The position numbers were made by a program, and so were the translations under genes. This document shows, piece by piece, positions 2,121 to 57,440 of a DNA stretch of 64,000 nucleotides. The notes beneath the pieces were generated by a model, which did not search any database, had not been told where the DNA came from, and worked only from the letters and a program-made list of their open reading frames with translations. Numbering within the stretch: the stretch's first letter is position 1; every line of letters starts with the position of its first letter. Source of the stretch: Fluviicola sp. (GTDB taxonomy: Bacteria > Bacteroidota > Bacteroidia > Flavobacteriales_D > Crocinitomicaceae); the NCBI GenBank assembly GCA_002734085.1, contig NVXV01000012.1, positions 62,001-126,000 on the forward strand, read 5' to 3'.

Positions 2121-4409
2121 ATGAATTATCTCCAAGATTTAAATGATAGTCAACGCGTCGCTGTTGAACACATAAACGGACCTATGATGGTCATTGCTGG
2201 TGCGGGTTCTGGAAAAACCAGAGTACTCACCTATCGCATCGCACACCTCATGCATAACGGTGTTGACTCTTTTAGTATCCTGGCTTTAACTTTTACAAAT
2301 AAAGCGGCAAAAGAAATGAAGGAGCGTATTGGTCAAATCGTTGGAGATAGCGAGGCAAGAAATATTGCGATGGGAACATTTCACTCCGTTTTTGCACGTA
2401 TTCTTAGATACAATTCAGATAAACTAGGATACCCTTCCAATTTCACTATTTACGATACGCAGGATTCACGCAGTTTATTAAGAGCTATTATTAAGGAGTT
2501 TGGATTAGATGATAAAGTGTACAAACCCAATGCTGTTCAAGGACGAATTTCAAGTGCAAAAAACAATTTGATTTCCCCTGAGGCTTACGAAGCCAACGCT
2601 GAAATAGTTGGTGAAGATCGTATGTCTCGTAAACCTGAAATTTTTAGAATTTATAAAGAATACCAAAGAAGATGTTTCAAGGCTGGAGCAATGGACTTTG
2701 ATGATTTGCTTTATCAAACCAATGTATTACTTAGAGATTTTCCCGATGTACTTCATTATTATCAACAAAAATTCAAATACGTCCTAGTGGATGAGTATCA
2801 GGACACGAACTATTCACAATACCTTATCGTTAAAAAATTAGCTGCTGTCCACGAAAATTTATGTGTGGTTGGTGATGACGCGCAGAGTATTTACTCTTTC
2901 CGTGGAGCAAACATTGAAAATATTCTGAACTTTAAAAAAGACTATCCAGATTACGCGCTTTATAAATTAGAACAGAATTATCGAAGCACTAAGAATATTG
3001 TTGAGGCAGCCAATAGTATTATTAAACGAAATGTCGAGCAGATTAAGAAAGATGTCTGGACAAGTAATGATCAGGGAAATCAAATCAATGCGATACGCTG
3101 TTTGACGGACAACGAAGAAGGTCGTGTAATTGTAAACCGAATATACGATTTAAAACAAAGTACAGGTGCTGAATATTTGGACTTTGCTATACTTTATAGA
3201 ACAAATGCACAGTCCCGTTCTTTTGAAGAATCACTGCGTAAACTAAATATGCCTTATAAAATTTATGGCGGCTTATCATTCTATCAGCGTAAAGAAATCA
3301 AAGACCTCATAGCATATTTTAGACTTACCGCTAACCCTTCGGATGAAGAAGCACTAAAAAGAGTGATCAATTACCCAAAGAGAGGAATTGGTAAAACCAC
3401 CATGGATTCGATAATGATGGCTGCGAGTCAATACGATGTAGCAATTTGGGATATTATTTCAGATTTCCAACGCTATCCTGTTTCCATTTCTTCTGGGGCA
3501 AAAACGAAAATCAATCAATTTGTAACGAAGATCAAAAGTTATTCAATGCGGTTAGAAAACACTTCTGCATATGAATTAGCAAATGACGTTGCTCAGTCTA
3601 CTGGGATTTTAAAAGATTTATATGATGATAAATCTCCCGAAGGAGTTACACGTTATGAAAACATTCAAGAACTTCTTGCGGGTATAAAAGAGTTCTCTGT
3701 CACAAAAGAAGAACAAGATGAAATTGGAACTTTAGCTGATTTCCTTATCGACGTTGCTTTATTAACAGATGCAGATCAAGAGAAAGATGAGGACAAAAAT
3801 AAAATCACATTGATGACGATTCACGCGTCAAAAGGATTGGAGTTTCCACATGTTTTTATCGTTGGTTTAGAAGAAAATTTATTTCCTTCTCAAATGGCTC
3901 TCAGTTCTAGAACAGAGCTGGAAGAAGAACGACGTTTATTTTATGTTGCCATGACAAGAGCAGAAAAGACATGTACTTTGTCATATGTGGTGAGTCGTTA
4001 CCGTTGGGGACAACTTGTCACAGCAGAACCTAGTCGATTTATTGATGAAGTAGATCAACAATATCTGAATCACGAAAATAACTCTAAAAACACAGGCGGA
4101 GGAAAATCGCTAAGTGGTCACAAACGACCTTCCCAAGATAGGTCACCAGGTTTTGGAATGATGGGAAAACCACAAAGAAATCTTAAGCGAGTTAGTGAAA
4201 CAAAAGGAGAAATACCATCTTCTAGTGGAGCGACTGGAACTACAGATGAATTGAAAGTTGGATATAATGTTATTCACGGTCGTTTTGGAAAAGGCAAAGT
4301 AACTGCTCTTGAAGGAAAGTCTCCTGATCAAAAAGCAACAGTTTTCTTCCCGCGGGTTGGACAGAAAAAATTGATTTTGAAGTTTGCGAAGTTGGAGGTG
4401 GTTGATTAA
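2121..4409 (+). CDS. uvrD: UvrD/PcrA-type superfamily 1 DNA helicase
   Basis: A 762-residue ATP-dependent 3'-5' DNA helicase of the UvrD/PcrA/Rep family, acting in nucleotide excision repair, mismatch repair and removal of recombinase filaments. Visible motifs are Walker A AGAGSGKT (residues 26-33), Walker B VDEYQD (about 222), motif III VVGDDAQSIYSFRGA, motif IV LEQNYRST, motif V MTIHASKGLEF (about 565) and motif VI VAMTRAEK. The length and the C-terminal Tudor-like segment (VGYNVIHGRFGKGKVTALEG), after a Gly/Ser/Lys-rich linker, are typical of PcrA/UvrD. The ATG at 2121 is preceded by a promoter-like motif ending at 2116, which fixes the start. Stands alone, convergent with valS. Whether the host calls it uvrD or pcrA cannot be decided here. 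Confidence 0.95.
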   Translation: MNYLQDLNDSQRVAVEHINGPMMVIAGAGSGKTRVLTYRIAHLMHNGVDSFSILALTFTNKAAKEMKERIGQIVGDSEARNIAMGTFHSVFARILRYNSDKLGYPSNFTIYDTQDSRSLLRAIIKEFGLDDKVYKPNAVQGRISSAKNNLISPEAYEANAEIVGEDRMSRKPEIFRIYKEYQRRCFKAGAMDFDDLLYQTNVLLRDFPDVLHYYQQKFKYVLVDEYQDTNYSQYLIVKKLAAVHENLCVVGDDAQSIYSFRGANIENILNFKKDYPDYALYKLEQNYRSTKNIVEAANSIIKRNVEQIKKDVWTSNDQGNQINAIRCLTDNEEGRVIVNRIYDLKQSTGAEYLDFAILYRTNAQSRSFEESLRKLNMPYKIYGGLSFYQRKEIKDLIAYFRLTANPSDEEALKRVINYPKRGIGKTTMDSIMMAASQYDVAIWDIISDFQRYPVSISSGAKTKINQFVTKIKSYSMRLENTSAYELANDVAQSTGILKDLYDDKSPEGVTRYENIQELLAGIKEFSVTKEEQDEIGTLADFLIDVALLTDADQEKDEDKNKITLMTIHASKGLEFPHVFIVGLEENLFPSQMALSSRTELEEERRLFYVAMTRAEKTCTLSYVVSRYRWGQLVTAEPSRFIDEVDQQYLNHENNSKNTGGGKSLSGHKRPSQDRSPGFGMMGKPQRNLKRVSETKGEIPSSSGATGTTDELKVGYNVIHGRFGKGKVTALEGKSPDQKATVFFPRVGQKKLILKFAKLEVVD

Positions 4410-4439: not shown

Positions 4440-4530
4440 CTTTTTGTCACGATTTTTGAATCAAAAATACGCGCCAAAAAGAGATTGACTTGCGCTTCTT
4501 CTATTCTGCGGGTTGAAACCCGCAGCAATA
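4440..4530 (+). repeat. Partial copy of the dispersed hairpin repeat, plus a REP-like palindrome
   Basis: The gap between the helicase and valS holds two palindromes. At 4440-4481 outer arms CTTTTTG/CAAAAAG enclose an inner hairpin ATTTTTG-AAT-CAAAAAT; the same design occurs twice in the 47981-48318 element. At 4506-4525 CTGCGGGTT-GA-AACCCGCAG is a perfect 9-bp hairpin of the REP type, followed by a second half site AACCCGCAG at 4548-4556. Convergent genes flank it, so it may also end transcription. Confidence 0.7.
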
Positions 4531-4594: not shown

Positions 4595-7222
4595 CTAAAC
4601 CAAATCCTTCAGCTTCTCTTCAAGAATCGTAATCTTCTCTTCGGCGTCGGCTTGTTTTTTCTTTTCTGAAGCTACAACTTGTTCGGGTGCGTTATTTACG
4701 AAACGTTCGTTACCCAGTTTCTTTTGAACTGACTTTAAGAAACCTTTTGTGTATTCTAATTCTTCTTGAATTTTTTCACGCTCACTGTCCAAATCAACTG
4801 CATCACCAAATGGAATGAAATATTCCGTGTTCTGAACAATAAAAGAAAAAGCGTTATTTACTTTTTTATCTACATAATCCAATGAACTAAAGTTGCCCAT
4901 TTTTGAAAGAATCGTATCCATATTCTTAGGATGCTTACCTCCTTTGGCAATCTTAAATTCAATTTTGATTTTGTTAGCGATATTATTCTTAGTTCTAATA
5001 TTACGGATATTCGTAATTACTTCTGAAACCGTTTTAAAATCGTTTATCAATGAATCATTCACCGATTTAACTTCTGGCCAGGCTGCTACTATAATATCAT
5101 CTCCGTCTTCTCTTTCGCGCAATACATGCCATAGTTCTTCTGATATGAAGGGAGTAAACGGATGAACAATTTTCAATAACTTCTCAAAGAATCGAACAGT
5201 AATTTCTTTCGTTTCGGTATCAATCGGTTGCTGATATCCTGGCTTCACCATTTCCAAATACCAAGAACAGAAATCATCCCAGATCAACTTGTACGTTGCC
5301 ATCAATGCATCTGAAATTCTGAATTTATCGTATTGTTCATTGATGTTTTTCAGTGTTTCGTTGAACTTACTATCAAACCATTGAATCGCAAGTTTGGCAG
5401 ATTCTGGCTGATCCATGTCTTTCACTTCCCACGAGTCAATTAAACGGGAAGCATTCCACATTTTATTGGAGAAATTTCTTCCTTGTTCACATTGGCTTGA
5501 ATCAAATGGCAAATCATTTCCTGCTGGAGATGATACTAACATCCCAACACGAACTCCATCTGCACCATACTTTTTGATTAACTCTAATGGATCAGGAGAG
5601 TTTCCTAATGACTTAGACATTTTTCTACCCAGTTTATCGCGAACAATTCCTGTGTAGTATACATTTTTAAATGGCAATTCATCCATGTACTCATATCCTG
5701 CAATAATCATCCGTGCTACCCAGAAGAACATAATTTCTGGAGCCGTCACCAAATCATTTGTAGGGTAGTAATATTTTATCTCTTTGTTTCCTGGCTTATT
5801 TAATCCTTTGAAAACAGAAATTGGCCATAACCAGCTTGAAAACCATGTATCCAATACATCTTCGTCTTGGTGTAAGTCGCCAGCAGAAATCGATTTTCCA
5901 GCTTTTTCTGAAGCCAGCTTAATCGCTTCGTCTTCTGTTTTTGCCACAACAAAATCATCTGAACCTTCGCCATAATACCAAGCAGGAATTCTATGTCCCC
6001 ACCATAGTTGACGAGAGATACACCAATCCTTGATGTTTTCCATCCAGTGACGATATGTGTTTTTCATATTGTCAGGATAGAAATTGATATCACCATTCAT
6101 TACGTGTTCCAATGCTGGACCAGATAGACTTTTCATATCCACGAACCACTGCAAAGACAAGCGAGGCTCAATCACAGCATCTGTACGCTCAGAAAATCCG
6201 AGTTTATTGATATGGTCTTCTACTTTAATTAAGTAGCCTTTATCTTCTAATTCTTTTGAAATTGCTTTTCTCGCTTCAAAACGATCTTGACCTTGATAAT
6301 GCAAACCATGCTCATTGAGGGTTCCATCTGCATTTAAAATATCAATTGTCTCAAGCTCGTGCTTTTTACCAATATCATAATCATTTGTATCATGAGCTGG
6401 TGTAATTTTCAAACAACCCGTTCCAAACTCCATATCTACATATTCATCTTGAATAATCGGAATGGTTCTGTTTGCAATTGGTACAATGGCGAATTTACCG
6501 TGCAAATTAGCAAAACGCGCATCATTTGGATTCACACAAATGGCAGTATCACCTAAAATAGTTTCTGGACGAGTCGTTGCAATAGTCAGCCATTCATCAT
6601 CTGTACCTGCAATTTTATATCTTACATGGAACAACTTAGAATTTACTTCTTTGTGCAATACTTCCTCATCTGAAAGTGCTGTTTTCGCTTCAGGATCCCA
6701 ATTGATCATTCGAACTCCGCGGTAAATCTTACCCTTCTTGAATAAATCAATAAATACATCGATTACAGAATCAGCATAATCCTTATCCATCGTGAAATGG
6801 GTTCTTTCCCAATCACATGAAGCACCAAGTTTTTTCAATTGGTCCAGAATAATTCCACCGTGCTTTTCTTTCCATTCCCAAGCATGTTTCATAAAATCAT
6901 CCCTTGAAAGATCTGATTTCTTGATTCCTTCAGTACGCAGTTTATTTACCACTTTTGCTTCGGTTGCAATAGAAGCGTGATCCGTACCAGGAACCCAACA
7001 CGCATTTTTTCCTTGCATACGTGCACGACGAACCAAAACATCTTGAATGGTATTATTCAACATGTGTCCCATGTGCAAAACACCCGTCACATTTGGTGGC
7101 GGAATGACAACCGTATAAGGCTCTCTGTCATCAGGTTCACTGTGAAAATAGTTTTTATTCATCCAGTGGTCATACCACTTTTCTTCTGCTTTTACCGGAT
7201 CGTATGTCTTTGGAATTTCCAT
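4595..7222 (-). CDS. valS: Valyl-tRNA synthetase
   Basis: An 875-residue class I aminoacyl-tRNA synthetase that charges tRNA-Val in the cytoplasm. The HIGH-type signature appears as HMGH (residues 50-53, in PPPNVTGVLHMGHMLN), and KMSKSLGNSPDPLELI (about 533) is the second ATP-binding loop. The editing (CP1) domain lies between, with TTRPETILGDTAI, and the C-terminal 65 residues form the Lys/Glu-rich coiled-coil arm (EREKIQEELEYTKGFLK) that distinguishes ValRS from IleRS. The length fits bacterial ValRS. Minus strand, single gene; a TAnnTTTG promoter element lies 20 bases upstream of the ATG. Very secure. Confidence 0.97.
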   Translation of the reverse strand: MEIPKTYDPVKAEEKWYDHWMNKNYFHSEPDDREPYTVVIPPPNVTGVLHMGHMLNNTIQDVLVRRARMQGKNACWVPGTDHASIATEAKVVNKLRTEGIKKSDLSRDDFMKHAWEWKEKHGGIILDQLKKLGASCDWERTHFTMDKDYADSVIDVFIDLFKKGKIYRGVRMINWDPEAKTALSDEEVLHKEVNSKLFHVRYKIAGTDDEWLTIATTRPETILGDTAICVNPNDARFANLHGKFAIVPIANRTIPIIQDEYVDMEFGTGCLKITPAHDTNDYDIGKKHELETIDILNADGTLNEHGLHYQGQDRFEARKAISKELEDKGYLIKVEDHINKLGFSERTDAVIEPRLSLQWFVDMKSLSGPALEHVMNGDINFYPDNMKNTYRHWMENIKDWCISRQLWWGHRIPAWYYGEGSDDFVVAKTEDEAIKLASEKAGKSISAGDLHQDEDVLDTWFSSWLWPISVFKGLNKPGNKEIKYYYPTNDLVTAPEIMFFWVARMIIAGYEYMDELPFKNVYYTGIVRDKLGRKMSKSLGNSPDPLELIKKYGADGVRVGMLVSSPAGNDLPFDSSQCEQGRNFSNKMWNASRLIDSWEVKDMDQPESAKLAIQWFDSKFNETLKNINEQYDKFRISDALMATYKLIWDDFCSWYLEMVKPGYQQPIDTETKEITVRFFEKLLKIVHPFTPFISEELWHVLREREDGDDIIVAAWPEVKSVNDSLINDFKTVSEVITNIRNIRTKNNIANKIKIEFKIAKGGKHPKNMDTILSKMGNFSSLDYVDKKVNNAFSFIVQNTEYFIPFGDAVDLDSEREKIQEELEYTKGFLKSVQKKLGNERFVNNAPEQVVASEKKKQADAEEKITILEEKLKDLV

Positions 7223-46313: not shown

Positions 46314-47009
46314 TTAAGATTCAAACTTCAACCATTTTTTATAATTCATTTTTATTCTTTCAGGAGACCCTCCTAGCATAAAAGTCCAATAACTCCATAG
46401 GTTCACCACATTGACTTTGAAGTAAGAGTTATGCTCATATTTACGAGCAGATACAAGTACATCTTTTGGAATAATTTTGAATTTAAAGTTTTTGCGTGCC
46501 CTGCGAATAAAATCAAAATCTTCCATTATTACATATTCTGGATCGAAACCATCTAACTCATTGAAAACTGACTTCTTTACAAACAGAGTCTGGTCACCTC
46601 CCCTACAAAACATAAAGTCGAACCTGGTCCACCAAGCATTAAATTTTAAAGGCAACGCATTTTTATCAAATTGAAATCGATAGCAGCCTACATCTACTCC
46701 TTTTTTAATTGATTCTCGAATATCATCTTCAAATGAGTTTGGCGGTATCACATCTGCATGAATAAAATAAAAAATCTCTCCAGTTGCTGCATTAGCTCCA
46801 GTATTCATCTGCTTTGCTCTACTCGGAATATGATCTTCAATTACATTGACTTTTGGATACGATTTTGCAATTTCTACAGTTTTATCTGTACTTTTTGCAT
46901 CCACGATGATGATTTCTTCGTAAGTGTAAGTATATTTGGACAATACGTCTAACAGTTGAGGGAGTTTTTCCTCTTCGTTTAAAGTTGGAATGATTATGGA
47001 TATTTTCAT
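46314..47009 (-). CDS. Family 2 glycosyltransferase, TIGR04283-like
   Basis: A 231-residue glycosyltransferase starting at the ATG at 47009 (MKISIIIPTLNEEEKLPQLL). The GT-A fold motifs are IIPTLNEEE, IIVDAKSTDKTVEIA, the FIHADVIPP region corresponding to the DxD position, and YVIMEDFDFIRRARK. The sequence pattern resembles TIGR04283, a glycosyltransferase family named for its association with arsenosugar biosynthesis in Bacteroidota and cyanobacteria. The frame can be extended upstream to 47240, but that would overlap the divergent DUF547 gene and has no signal. Whether it makes arsenosugars here is not known; arsC lies 4 kb away, and no radical-SAM partner was seen. Confidence 0.8.
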   Translation of the reverse strand: MKISIIIPTLNEEEKLPQLLDVLSKYTYTYEEIIIVDAKSTDKTVEIAKSYPKVNVIEDHIPSRAKQMNTGANAATGEIFYFIHADVIPPNSFEDDIRESIKKGVDVGCYRFQFDKNALPLKFNAWWTRFDFMFCRGGDQTLFVKKSVFNELDGFDPEYVIMEDFDFIRRARKNFKFKIIPKDVLVSARKYEHNSYFKVNVVNLWSYWTFMLGGSPERIKMNYKKWLKFES

Positions 47010-47040
47010 TGCCTCGAAATTAAAAATAAAAATAACTGAT

Positions 47041-47976
47041 ATGAAAAGAATAATAATTTTAAATGTCGCTATCTTGCTAATTATTGGAAATACATACGCT
47101 TGTAGTGCGAAAAAAGATGTCACGGTCCCAGATATTAATTCCACTGAGAGTAGTTCAACCGATATCACAGAGAATAATTCAACTGATATAGAAGAGAAAG
47201 AGACCAAGAAAACTGAACAAGTAGACACATCAAACGACACTAATAATATGGATTCGACAGAAGTCGATGAAAAGGAAGTGAAAGTCGAAAAATCTAATAG
47301 TGATCTTCACAAACATCAAATTTGGGATGAGCTCACGACAAAACATGTTACGGAAAAAGGATATTTAGACTATAAAGGAATGATTAAAGATTCAACGAAG
47401 CTAAATAAATATTTAAAACAATTATCAGCGAATCATCCCAACGACTCCTGGACTTCAAATCAACGTAAGGCTTTCTGGATAAATGCCTACAACGCATACA
47501 CTGTAAAGTTAATTGTAGACAACTATCCTGTTAAGTCAATTAAAGATTTAGGGGGATCTATTTATCGTGTAAATACTCCTTGGGATATTAAGTTTATTAA
47601 TATAGGTGATAAAGAATATCACTTAAATGACTTAGAGCATAATATTTTAAGAAAAGAGTGGGAAGATGCAAGAATACACGCAGCTGTAAATTGTGCATCT
47701 ATCTCTTGTCCAAGGTTGAGAGCTGGTGCTTTTACGGCAGATAAATTGGACGAACAATTAGACGAACAAATGCGGATTTTCATTAATGATGAAACTAAAA
47801 ATGTGATTAATGAAAAGAGCGCCAAACTCTCTAAACTTTTCAAATGGTTCTCAGGAGATTTTAAAAACAATGCTCCCTCGGTAATTGCATATATCAACAA
47901 GTATTCAAAAACAAAGTTAAGCGAAGACGCTGATATCGACTATGCTGAATATGATTGGAACTTGAATGACAAATAG
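47041..47976 (+). CDS. DUF547-domain lipoprotein
   Basis: A 311-residue secreted protein. From the ATG at 47041 it has a signal peptide (MKRIIILNVAILLIIGNTYAC), then a long Ser/Thr/Asp/Glu-rich linker with Val-Thr-Glu repeats (about residues 25-80), then a DUF547 domain: LWDELTTKHVTEKGYLDYKGM, SNQRKAFWINAYNAYTVKLI, NLGG-like DLGGSIYRVNTPWD and HAAVNCASISCPRL, whose Cys and His residues are the most conserved part of the family. The function of DUF547 is not known. Divergent from the glycosyltransferase, 31 bases between starts. DUF547 genes also occur near TIGR04283 genes, so a joint role is plausible. Confidence 0.85.
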   Translation: MKRIIILNVAILLIIGNTYACSAKKDVTVPDINSTESSSTDITENNSTDIEEKETKKTEQVDTSNDTNNMDSTEVDEKEVKVEKSNSDLHKHQIWDELTTKHVTEKGYLDYKGMIKDSTKLNKYLKQLSANHPNDSWTSNQRKAFWINAYNAYTVKLIVDNYPVKSIKDLGGSIYRVNTPWDIKFINIGDKEYHLNDLEHNILRKEWEDARIHAAVNCASISCPRLRAGAFTADKLDEQLDEQMRIFINDETKNVINEKSAKLSKLFKWFSGDFKNNAPSVIAYINKYSKTKLSEDADIDYAEYDWNLNDK

Positions 47977-47980
47977 AGGG

Positions 47981-48318
47981 TGTGCTTCGGGAGGCTTTTT
48001 GTCACGGTTTTTCACGGAAAAACGCGCGCCAAAAAGATTTTTCGCTGTTGGGTTTCACAATGGGTTAGCCCCAATTGTTTACCGAAACATCCTCCTTACA
48101 GGACTTTTTACTAGTCTTAGGTTCTTTTAGCCCATGTTTTCACCCATGGTTACAAGTTGATTGTCCCTCACAGGACTCAGTAATAACATAGCTGAGTATC
48201 GTAGATACGACATTTCTTTAGCCATGGGTTTCAACCCGCGGCTAGAGAAATGCATAGACAATTCTTTTTGGCGAAATTTTTGTATCAAAAATTATGACAA
48301 AAAACCTTCCGAAGCACA
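47981..48318. mobile_element. MITE-like element with terminal inverted arms and REP hairpins
   Basis: The 349-base gap between the convergent DUF547 and hflX genes is filled almost exactly by this element. Left end TGTGCTTCGGGAGGCTTTTTG and right end, reversed, TGTGCTTCGGAAGGTTTTTTG are near-perfect inverted repeats. Each arm contains a two-stem hairpin: outer CTTTTTG/CAAAAAG, inner GTTTTTC-ACG-GAAAAAC on the left (47995-48036) and ATTTTTG-TAT-CAAAAAT on the right (48264-48304). Inside are REP-like hairpins around 48127-48152 and 48213-48250 (TTTCTTTAGCC ... GGCTAGAGAAA with inner GGGTT-TC-AACCC) and short GTCC..GGAC motifs. It codes for nothing. Confidence 0.75.
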
Positions 48319-48325
48319 AAATCAA

Positions 48326-49525
48326 TTAGTACAGAAAATTATTATAAGGGTATCTTTCTTTAAAGATACGTTTCACTTCGCTGTATAGTACATCTTTCAA
48401 TTCGTCAAAATTCTCTTTCTTTTCAGCAGAAATAAACACACATTTATCGTTATTTAATTTTGCCATCCATTGTTTTTTAAGCTCTTCCAAAGAGAAATTC
48501 TCTTGTTTTTTGGGTTCTAAATCGTCTTCATCTTGGGGTGTGTAAGTGTATGCATCTATTTTGTTAAACACGACTATCGTTGGTTTTTCAGACTTATCAA
48601 TTTCACCTAAAGTCTCATTCACCACGTTGTAATGATCTTCAAAATTAGAATGAGAAATATCAACTACATGCACTAAAATATCAGATTCTCGAACTTCATC
48701 TAAAGTTGATTTAAAAGACTCTACCAGTTGATGTGGAAGCTTGCGAATAAAACCTACTGTATCAGAAAGCAAAAATGGTAAGTTTTCAATTACTACTTTT
48801 CTAACTGTTGTATCGAGCGTTGCAAAAAGTTTGTTCTCCGCAAAAACCTCAGATTTACTCAATGCATTCATGATTGTACTCTTTCCAACATTAGTATATC
48901 CCACCAATGCAACGCGCACTAACTGACCACGGTTTCCACGTTGAACAGCTTTTTGTTTGTCAATTTCTTTGAGTTTTTTCTTTAAAAGACTGATTTTTTG
49001 TTTAATAATACGACGGTCTGTTTCAATCTGGGTCTCCCCTGGACCACGCATTCCAATCCCCCCTTTTTGACGTTCTAAGTGAGTCCACATTCGTGTTAGT
49101 CGCGGGAGTAAATATTCGTATTGTGCTAATTCCACTTGTGTTTTGGCATGGGCTGTTCTTGCTCGCGAAGCAAAAATATCGAGTATTAAATTACTTCTAT
49201 CTAATATTTTAACATTGAGAATGCGTTCAACATTTCTTAGTTGTGATGGAGATAAGTCATCATCAAAAATAACCATTTCAATTTCATGTTCTTGAATATA
49301 ATTCTTGACCTCATCAATTTTACCTGTTCCAAGAAATGTCTTTGGGTGTGGAACTTGAAGTTTTTGTAAAAACATTTTCTCAGTTCTTGCTCCAGCTGTT
49401 TCAGCTAAAAAGGCAAGTTCGTTAATATGTTCTCTTGCTTCTTCTTCGGTTTGATCTTGAGTTATTGCACCAACTAAAACAGCGCTTTCTCCTTCAATAC
49501 CTTCTTTAATCTTTCCTATTTCCAT
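48326..49525 (-). CDS. hflX: GTPase HflX
   Basis: A 399-residue ribosome-associated GTPase that rescues stalled ribosomes by splitting 70S particles. The N-terminal HflX domain includes KTFLGTGKIDEV and LSPSQLRNVERILNVKILDRSNLILDIFASRARTAHAK; the GTPase domain has G1 GYTNVGKSTIMNAL, G3 LSDTVGFI, G4 FNKIDAY. The QVELAQYEYLLPRLTRMW segment and GGIGMRGPGETQIETDRR are typical of the family. It is immediately followed (8 bases) by the MITE-like element. It follows the cytochrome c gene by three bases but the functions are unrelated. Confidence 0.95.
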   Translation of the reverse strand: MEIGKIKEGIEGESAVLVGAITQDQTEEEAREHINELAFLAETAGARTEKMFLQKLQVPHPKTFLGTGKIDEVKNYIQEHEIEMVIFDDDLSPSQLRNVERILNVKILDRSNLILDIFASRARTAHAKTQVELAQYEYLLPRLTRMWTHLERQKGGIGMRGPGETQIETDRRIIKQKISLLKKKLKEIDKQKAVQRGNRGQLVRVALVGYTNVGKSTIMNALSKSEVFAENKLFATLDTTVRKVVIENLPFLLSDTVGFIRKLPHQLVESFKSTLDEVRESDILVHVVDISHSNFEDHYNVVNETLGEIDKSEKPTIVVFNKIDAYTYTPQDEDDLEPKKQENFSLEELKKQWMAKLNNDKCVFISAEKKENFDELKDVLYSEVKRIFKERYPYNNFLY

Positions 49526-55467: not shown

Positions 55468-55602
55468 TTACTTTAGTTTCCCTACTCTCACAAAAGGCTT
55501 TTCGGGTTCCGCCTGTTTAATACTATTTTGTTTCTGTAGTGGTTTCGAAGCACTTTCTTGTCCATTGGAATCAAAGTTGGTTGAGAAGCGAAAACTTTGC
55601 AG
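55468..55602 (-). pseudogene. Start-less open frame remnant, C-terminal fragment of a lost gene
   Basis: On the minus strand an open stretch of 44 codons ends in TAA (55470-55468) and reads LQSFRFSTNFDSNGQESASK, then PLQKQNSIKQAEPEKPFVRV and GKLK. It looks like real protein, with a strand followed by a Lys/Gln/Pro-rich tail, but begins with an in-frame stop (55605-55603) and has no start codon. It may be the last piece of a deleted gene that stood before 54891-55457. The rest of this 476-base gap (55603-55880) has no features I can support. Confidence 0.35.
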
Positions 55603-57280: not shown

Positions 57281-57440
57281 GTCCAGCTATGGACGATACT
57301 TATTTAACCATGGGTGATAACGCGTAGTTAAACAAAGAAAATACTTTTGGCGCGCATTTATTTTTTGGTTCCTGAGCTATTAAGAATAAATATTTAAAAA
57401 TGTCGAAGGACAAAAATCGTGACGAAAAGACTACGAAGCA
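57281..57440. repeat. Divergent partial copy of the MITE-like repeat
   Basis: GTCC...GGAC (57281-57294), a REP-like hairpin with arms TTTAAC/GTTAAA (57303-57332, core ACCATGGGT) and one arm (57344-57440, read on the minus strand from GCTTCG via GTCACGATTTTTG to TGCGCGCCAAAAG) occur in the same order as in the right half of the 47981-48318 element. The left arm is missing and the arm hairpin is broken by an insertion. Confidence 0.6.

Follow-up and report, generated by a model that had tools for sequence, protein, structure and literature searches.

A Bacteroidota family of MITE-like elements with a covarying hairpin module whose reverse strand may function in mRNA

The window analyzed here, a 64,000-nucleotide stretch of a Fluviicola sp. 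genome (4.03 Mb in 36 contigs), contains a convergent gene pair, a DUF547 gene (46990-47976, + strand) and a GTPase gene (48326-49525, - strand; Pfam GTP-bdg_N/M and MMR_HSR1, which the name hflX fits), whose shared gap is filled, as a preliminary description of the locus had it, by a 338-bp element (47981-48318). The near-perfect terminal inverted arms of that description are readily recognized: the 14-bp tips, TGTGCTTCGGGAGG (47981-47994, +) and CCTTCCGAAGCACA (48305-48318, -), match as inverted repeats at 13 of 14 positions, and directly inside each lies a copy of a two-stem hairpin, hereafter arm A. The left copy (47995-48036, +; R1 match, 65.9 bits) is composed of an outer CTTTTTG/CAAAAAG stem, an internal loop, and an inner GTTTTTC-ACG-GAAAAAC hairpin. 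The right copy (48264-48304, -; R1 match, 61.7 bits) has the inner stem ATTTTTG/CAAAAAT and is slightly irregular, with T.G as its outermost pair and an inner loop one base short. A single arm elsewhere in the window (4440-4481, +; R1 match, 72.6 bits) shares the latter inner stem, so that the fold and the inner-stem sequences ascribed earlier to the three copies are found as described. The neighbors of this arm, both named by eye, are a gene for a UvrD/PcrA-like helicase (2121-4409, +) on one side and one for a valine tRNA ligase (4595-7222, -) on the other; a REP-like hairpin (4504-4528, +) follows it on the 3′ side. A weak, long-loop arm at 57341-57432 (-) scores 29.3 bits, with an E-value of 3.5e-4 in the window and 0.02 genome-wide; by eye, a degenerate REP-like hairpin seems to come after it.

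Between the two arms of the element, three degenerate double-hairpin modules can be read, an assignment made by eye. A degenerate REP-like hairpin 3′ of the left arm (48057-48079, +; by comparison with the flanks of L053/L054 and L060) is accompanied by a small hairpin partner, CCTCCTTACAGGACT (48091-48105, +); a second REP-like hairpin, TTTAGCCCATGTTTTCACCCATGGTTA (48126-48152, +), is accompanied by the small hairpin GTCCCTCACAGGACT (48163-48177, +); and in the right half, where folding located both features and the module order was read by eye, a small hairpin region, GTATCGTAGATAC (48190-48213, -), adjoins the REP-like hairpin TTTAGCCATGGGTTTCAACCCGCGGCTAGAGAAA (48217-48250, -), the stretch containing which matches C4:42605-42680 at 84%. 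The whole element folds well beyond its shuffled versions (z of -9.6 with RNA parameters and -10.3 with DNA parameters; none of 100 shuffles equaled it), and is best read as a head-to-head pair of units that has an arm at either end. Its MITE-like form, proposed before, stands; this double arrangement is unlike the usual single unit of the family. The only full-length match to the element in the genome is the element itself; the arm and other parts recur, and an end resembling the window tips (two mismatches to the pattern) adjoins another arm at C9:84855-84878. No clear target duplication was seen around the window copy, and Rfam scans of the window gave no gathering-level match to arm A or to the modules of the element. 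At 55479-55515 (-), the window also bears a DUF805b cis-regulatory RNA scoring above its Rfam cut-off.

Covariation was assessed on 16 compact arms, 15 of this genome and one of a relative (G023). In these arms 92.6% of 272 cells are paired, compared with 42-63% for slid versions of the structure, over which the drawn structure has an advantage as it was derived from the same 16 sequences. Eight of the 17 pairs have changed on both sides, a level reached by none of 500 shuffles, which upholds the compensatory change first noted between copies of the window. The irregularities of the duplex are retained as well. Among 112 distinct arms, in an alignment fitted to the model, a T.C mismatch is kept in 108, and a second position, mm2, shows two states only, A.C (83 arms) and A-T (29 arms). 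Read on the reverse strand, mm2 becomes G.U or A-U and is paired in all 112 arms, as against 29 on the forward strand. This strand asymmetry, which went beyond the preliminary description, extends to folding energies: of 107 compact arms, 88 are more stable as the reverse strand and 16 as the forward strand with RNA parameters, and 106 and 1, respectively, with DNA parameters. The strand difference is thus clearer with DNA than with RNA parameters.

Variants of the fold occur. In five of the copies in this genome, among them the weak one of the window, the loop has ~32-47 bases instead of three, and three other arms (L332, L336, and L379) have a GC-rich palindrome in place of the inner stem. 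By eye, the long-loop arms L062, L065, L086, and 57341-57432 of the window have a similar loop near CCTTCGACATTTTTAAA...AAAGCTCAGGA; it is possible that the long-loop arms constitute a sub-family with extra structure. Rfam scans of ten loci listed no match to arm A at E <= 1. Far below their cut-offs, MIR2619 (in L332) and n00280 (in L236) weakly match stretches overlapping whole units, to which both families are unrelated.

A covariance model, for which the three window arms, 12 more from this genome, and one from G023 served as the 16 training sequences, placed arm A at a minimum of 21 positions in this genome at E <= 3e-4, with the weak window arm at 57341-57432 as a 22nd; the best 150 of 4509 candidates were scored. 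Fifteen of the 21 places belong to the training set, and four of the other six had previously been spotted by eye; the further genomic copies anticipated in the preliminary description, and sought by the kind of search it proposed, do exist. Within the bacterial family, at least 33 of 240 genomes carry the arm, this one counted (25 candidates scored per genome), and in an evenly drawn sample of the phylum at least 5 of 395, again counting this one (15 candidates scored per genome under stricter filters). Of the other four matches in that sample, inspected by eye, L385 and L386 have the core, L384 has the core without a clear REP hairpin, and L387 looks spurious. The motif is patchy, judging from the few genomes of the phylum sample with matches. 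In public genomes the exact arm pattern occurs in at least 116 stretches, of which 21 loci were read; the 80 titles listed are all of Bacteroidota and include Crocinitomicaceae, other Flavobacteriales, Saprospiraceae, Epilithonimonas, Chryseobacterium, Flagellimonas, Marinilabiliaceae, and Bacteroidales. The exact pattern had no match in viral contigs, and viral carriage was set aside on that ground. A search of the open literature found no earlier description of arm A. Like-oriented clusters of arms are present, and integron-like cassettes were considered on that account and then set aside. In one relative, L096 and L136 (G006:C2:87255 and 87596) hold a unit within a 341-bp direct repeat whose flanks are repeated too, and in G111 a SAM riboswitch (L131, 4545-4670) lies ~100 bp from a copy of arm A.

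In relatives, arm A is part of a larger unit. Both ends could be recognized in 40 short, non-coding units of 160-227 bp, which fall into two end-types: ends near TGACTGATCGCTTTCTTACCACA, with 31 units of 167-173 bp save one of 227, and ends near ATGATTATCCGCTACTTTCCCC, with nine units of 160-163 bp save one of 182. Units of the two types mostly measure 160-173 bp, have inverted ends of ~24 bp, and sit in target duplications of ~10 bp. Over ten bases, the left and right flanks of a unit resemble each other more than swapped flanks do, with 7.33 against 4.32 identities at nine sites and 6.38 against 4.21 at 24 sites (permutation p <= 5e-4, in a register picked after several were tried), and the duplication is an exact 10 bp at L332. 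In G009 a third end-type is flanked by a duplication of 8 bp, exact at one copy and 7/8 at another. One empty site was found: in a relative (L250), the gap corresponding to that of the L178 unit lacks the unit; divergence of the remaining L250 gap sequence prevents a base-by-base reading of the site before insertion. A simple scan recovered outer inverted repeats above the 99% control at 9 of 123 copies, and the genus-specific ends were later found by eye; end sequences vary between genera. In this genome most ends are lost or unrecognized, the window tips recurring beside one more arm. Of the distinct ends of the first type, 27 of 29 lead into the 5′ half of the arm; for the second type 11 of 20 do so, the other nine being right ends that lead into the small hairpin. 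The family is thus short and non-coding, with inverted ends and target duplications, as MITEs are, and its mobility is shown. The passive, MITE-like element with a covarying fold that was initially proposed proves to belong to a family of many copies.

The usual unit runs from a terminal inverted repeat through arm A, 10-25 nt, a REP-like hairpin, ~12 nt, and a small hairpin to the other terminal repeat. Arm A stands at one end only, at most ~5 nt from the left end in two end-types and ~35 nt inside the end in G009. A perfect stem lies within 80 nt 3′ of arm A at 107 of 144 sites and on the 5′ side at 12, compared with ~7 and ~5 in shuffles. The three-base loop of this neighboring hairpin reads GNA on the reverse strand in 39 of 61 cases, a loop that stabilizes single-stranded DNA hairpins. 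Of 38 places picked out by a left end, 30 had loci, and in these 30 units the REP hairpin (identity 0.937) and the arm (0.917) are the parts closest to consensus, followed by the small hairpin (0.874), the right end (0.871), and the spacer (0.835), the small hairpin being kept no better than the right end. In L357, L371, and L375 of this sample arm A is missing or heavily disrupted, and in L380 partly so; it is therefore not essential at every site. Across 29 aligned units, the outer arm pairs are Watson-Crick in 172 of 174 cells, against 200 of 261 and 192 of 232 for pairs of the terminal repeats, which show five double-changed cells, most rows having been picked for having the arm. Such decay with few double changes is the pattern expected of a spent transposon end. 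Orthologous copies give 0.058 substitutions per site in the arm and 0.158-0.183 outside it; this comparison, of 27 pairs that include six within one locus and were all picked for having the arm, is not relied on.

Orientation relative to genes provides a separate view of the strand. After merging of 269 raw copies by flank similarity, 147 sites remained, 133 of which had an ORF on both sides, the neighbor genes being crude ATG ORFs. Where the two neighbors are codirectional, they run with the reverse strand (sense) at 62 sites and against it (antisense) at 19 (p 1.8e-6); 33 further gaps are convergent and 19 divergent. The gene upstream in the reverse-strand reading is sense to that strand at 95 sites and antisense at 38 (p 8e-7); for the downstream gene the counts are 81 and 52 (p 0.015). 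An earlier, unmerged count of 126 copies went in the same direction (57 vs. 21). A bias toward one replication strand was considered and dropped for want of a signal across all copies, the skew at 4-fold sites being positive at 57 and negative at 66; within this genome it is positive at 5 of 19 copies and not at the other 14, and a replication bias may exist here.

Part of the unit resembles an orphan RNA family of Rfam. In L268, the module after arm A matches the Acido-Lenti-1 RNA (Rfam RF01687) at 38.4 bits, above the cut-off of 37, and in L294 the modules after both arms score 35.1 and 27.6 bits, below it. The gathering score is thus reached at one of ten loci scanned, with L294 2 bits under; the other eight gave no Acido-Lenti-1 match at E <= 1, and the window gave none at gathering level. 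The likeness consists of a hairpin, a ~12-nt linker, and a small hairpin, matching the part of the unit after arm A; the Rfam model differs in that arm A, the ends, and the target duplication have no counterpart in it. One account lists the family for Acidobacteria and Lentisphaerae (PMC2864571), and another notes it in Tannerella, where it follows two protease genes on their downstream side (PMC13298647). Its match lies on the strand of the arm as written, opposite to the better-folding reverse strand.

We favor, at a probability of roughly 0.55, the reading that these elements form a Bacteroidota MITE family with a structured module whose reverse strand would work in mRNA. The ~10-bp target duplication implies insertion by a staggered cut, and the inserting enzyme would probably be a DDE-type transposase. 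No transposase gene was seen inside any copy, ends found by pattern leading into units; next to the arm-less ends L212 and L357, neighboring genes look host-like by eye. Resident DDE_Tnp_1 genes were rejected as the source, being absent from seven of nine genomes searched and numbering two in total. The working strand would be the reverse of the arm as written, presenting small hairpin, REP hairpin, and arm A′ in 5′-3′ order. Since copies are mostly sense on this strand to their upstream gene, the hairpins are proposed to act in mRNA, most likely as a structure at the 3′-end or between cistrons that would block exonuclease or set a processing site. The case for an RNA role draws on strand (the G.U state) and orientation, both read from sequence, and several observations count against it or the reading as a whole: the stable-DNA arguments (DNA-parameter energies and GNA loops) fit as well as the RNA ones, the Acido-Lenti-1 match is on the opposite strand, and the ends differ between genera, with an 8-bp duplication in G009. 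A bolder version, judged improbable on balance, is that arm A and the Acido-Lenti-1-like double hairpin make up a mobile RNA regulatory cassette, moved phylum-wide between MITEs with unrelated ends and selected downstream of, and sense to, genes.

An unlikely alternative is that arm A serves as a transposase recognition structure, a sub-terminal hairpin in single-stranded or cruciform form, and that the orientation bias is a matter of target choice rather than RNA function. The larger strand difference with DNA parameters would be natural in that case, as would the nearness of the arm to the left end in two end-types and its position directly inside both window ends; yet the usual unit has the arm at a single end, G009 sets it well inside, arm and REP are better kept than right end and spacer, and the Watson-Crick pairing of the arm surpasses that of the terminal repeats. 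Mobilization by a RAYT or other Y1 enzyme, as the preliminary description supposed, is a still weaker contender: arm and hairpins would be a composite REP/BIME-type element whose transposase acts on the folded single strand. Substrates of single-strand transposases typically have a conserved mismatch and bulge, which the kept irregularities of arm A would suit, and by eye the double hairpin after arm A resembles those that surround this genome's two Y1 genes. Moreover, Y1_Tnp matches are widespread, with 51 in 20 genomes, namely two here and 49 in 18 of the 19 relatives tested. However, Y1 transposases are not known to make target-site duplications, in opposition to the ~10-bp duplications and inverted ends found in relatives, and none of the 32 of 51 Y1 matches that had loci (two here and 30 in relatives, with flanks up to 1.5 kb) was accompanied by a convincing arm A, the two hits having E-values of 0.21 and 0.28. 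The lack of an overall replication-strand signal at 4-fold sites also speaks against it, and RAYT mobilization is not supported. The two Y1 genes of this genome are of RAYT size and, by eye, each stands amid its own REP-like hairpins (L031 and L032; G000:C29 and C30); a second, longer Y1 group (~190-200 aa; L126 in G009 and L127 in G003) lies, again by eye, beside GACTACCACG-type repeats, and two copies of this longer group stand 2 kb apart at G006:C5:18433 and 20451.

Lastly, the covariation could have arisen with no selection at all, from palindrome correction in decaying repeats. Template-switch correction perfects inverted repeats without selection, and the GC-rich palindromes that replace three inner stems are possible inserted palindromes. 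Correction of this kind should also have removed the T.C mismatch, which 108 of the 112 arms still have, and resolved a position that stays either A.C or A-T; the retention of both is evidence against it as the source of covariation. Correction would, in addition, leave the bias in gene orientation unexplained, and we regard it as highly improbable.

Several known systems share features with the favored MITE family. REP/RAYT systems, including Bacteroidetes TnpAY1 subclasses 2.4 and 2.6, likewise have intergenic hairpins with conserved irregularities (PMC6006769, PMC3733652). REPs are there placed mainly in unidirectional and convergent gaps (PMC3733652), a preference also seen here, where 81 of 133 sites are unidirectional and 33 convergent; in contrast, arm A was not found beside Y1 genes, and our units have inverted ends and target duplications. 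The BrickBuilt MITE of Porphyromonas gingivalis is also of Bacteroidota, intergenic, and without transposase, and is partly transcribed by read-through; it is set apart by a minisatellite core, IS5-like ends, and variable short duplications (PMC4596501). Correia and ERIC elements are MITEs transcribed with their neighbors that affect mRNA decay through RNase sites (PMC10969869); they differ in their hosts, and the likeness is one of action at the mRNA level, shown experimentally there and proposed here from strand and orientation.

Arm A is a covarying motif common to distant Bacteroidota, and the Rfam scans made assigned it to no family. Its conserved irregular duplex, TTTTTG-TCAYG / CRYGC-CAAAAA, is predicted to be read by a trans-acting partner, and the units may provide a mobile context for part of the orphan Rfam family Acido-Lenti-1. 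If the cassette interpretation were true, many unrelated genes would have been given the same protein-bound mRNA end. The 147 insertion sites, varying in strand, host gene, and module integrity, constitute a natural set with which RNA and DNA roles of MITE hairpins may be separated.
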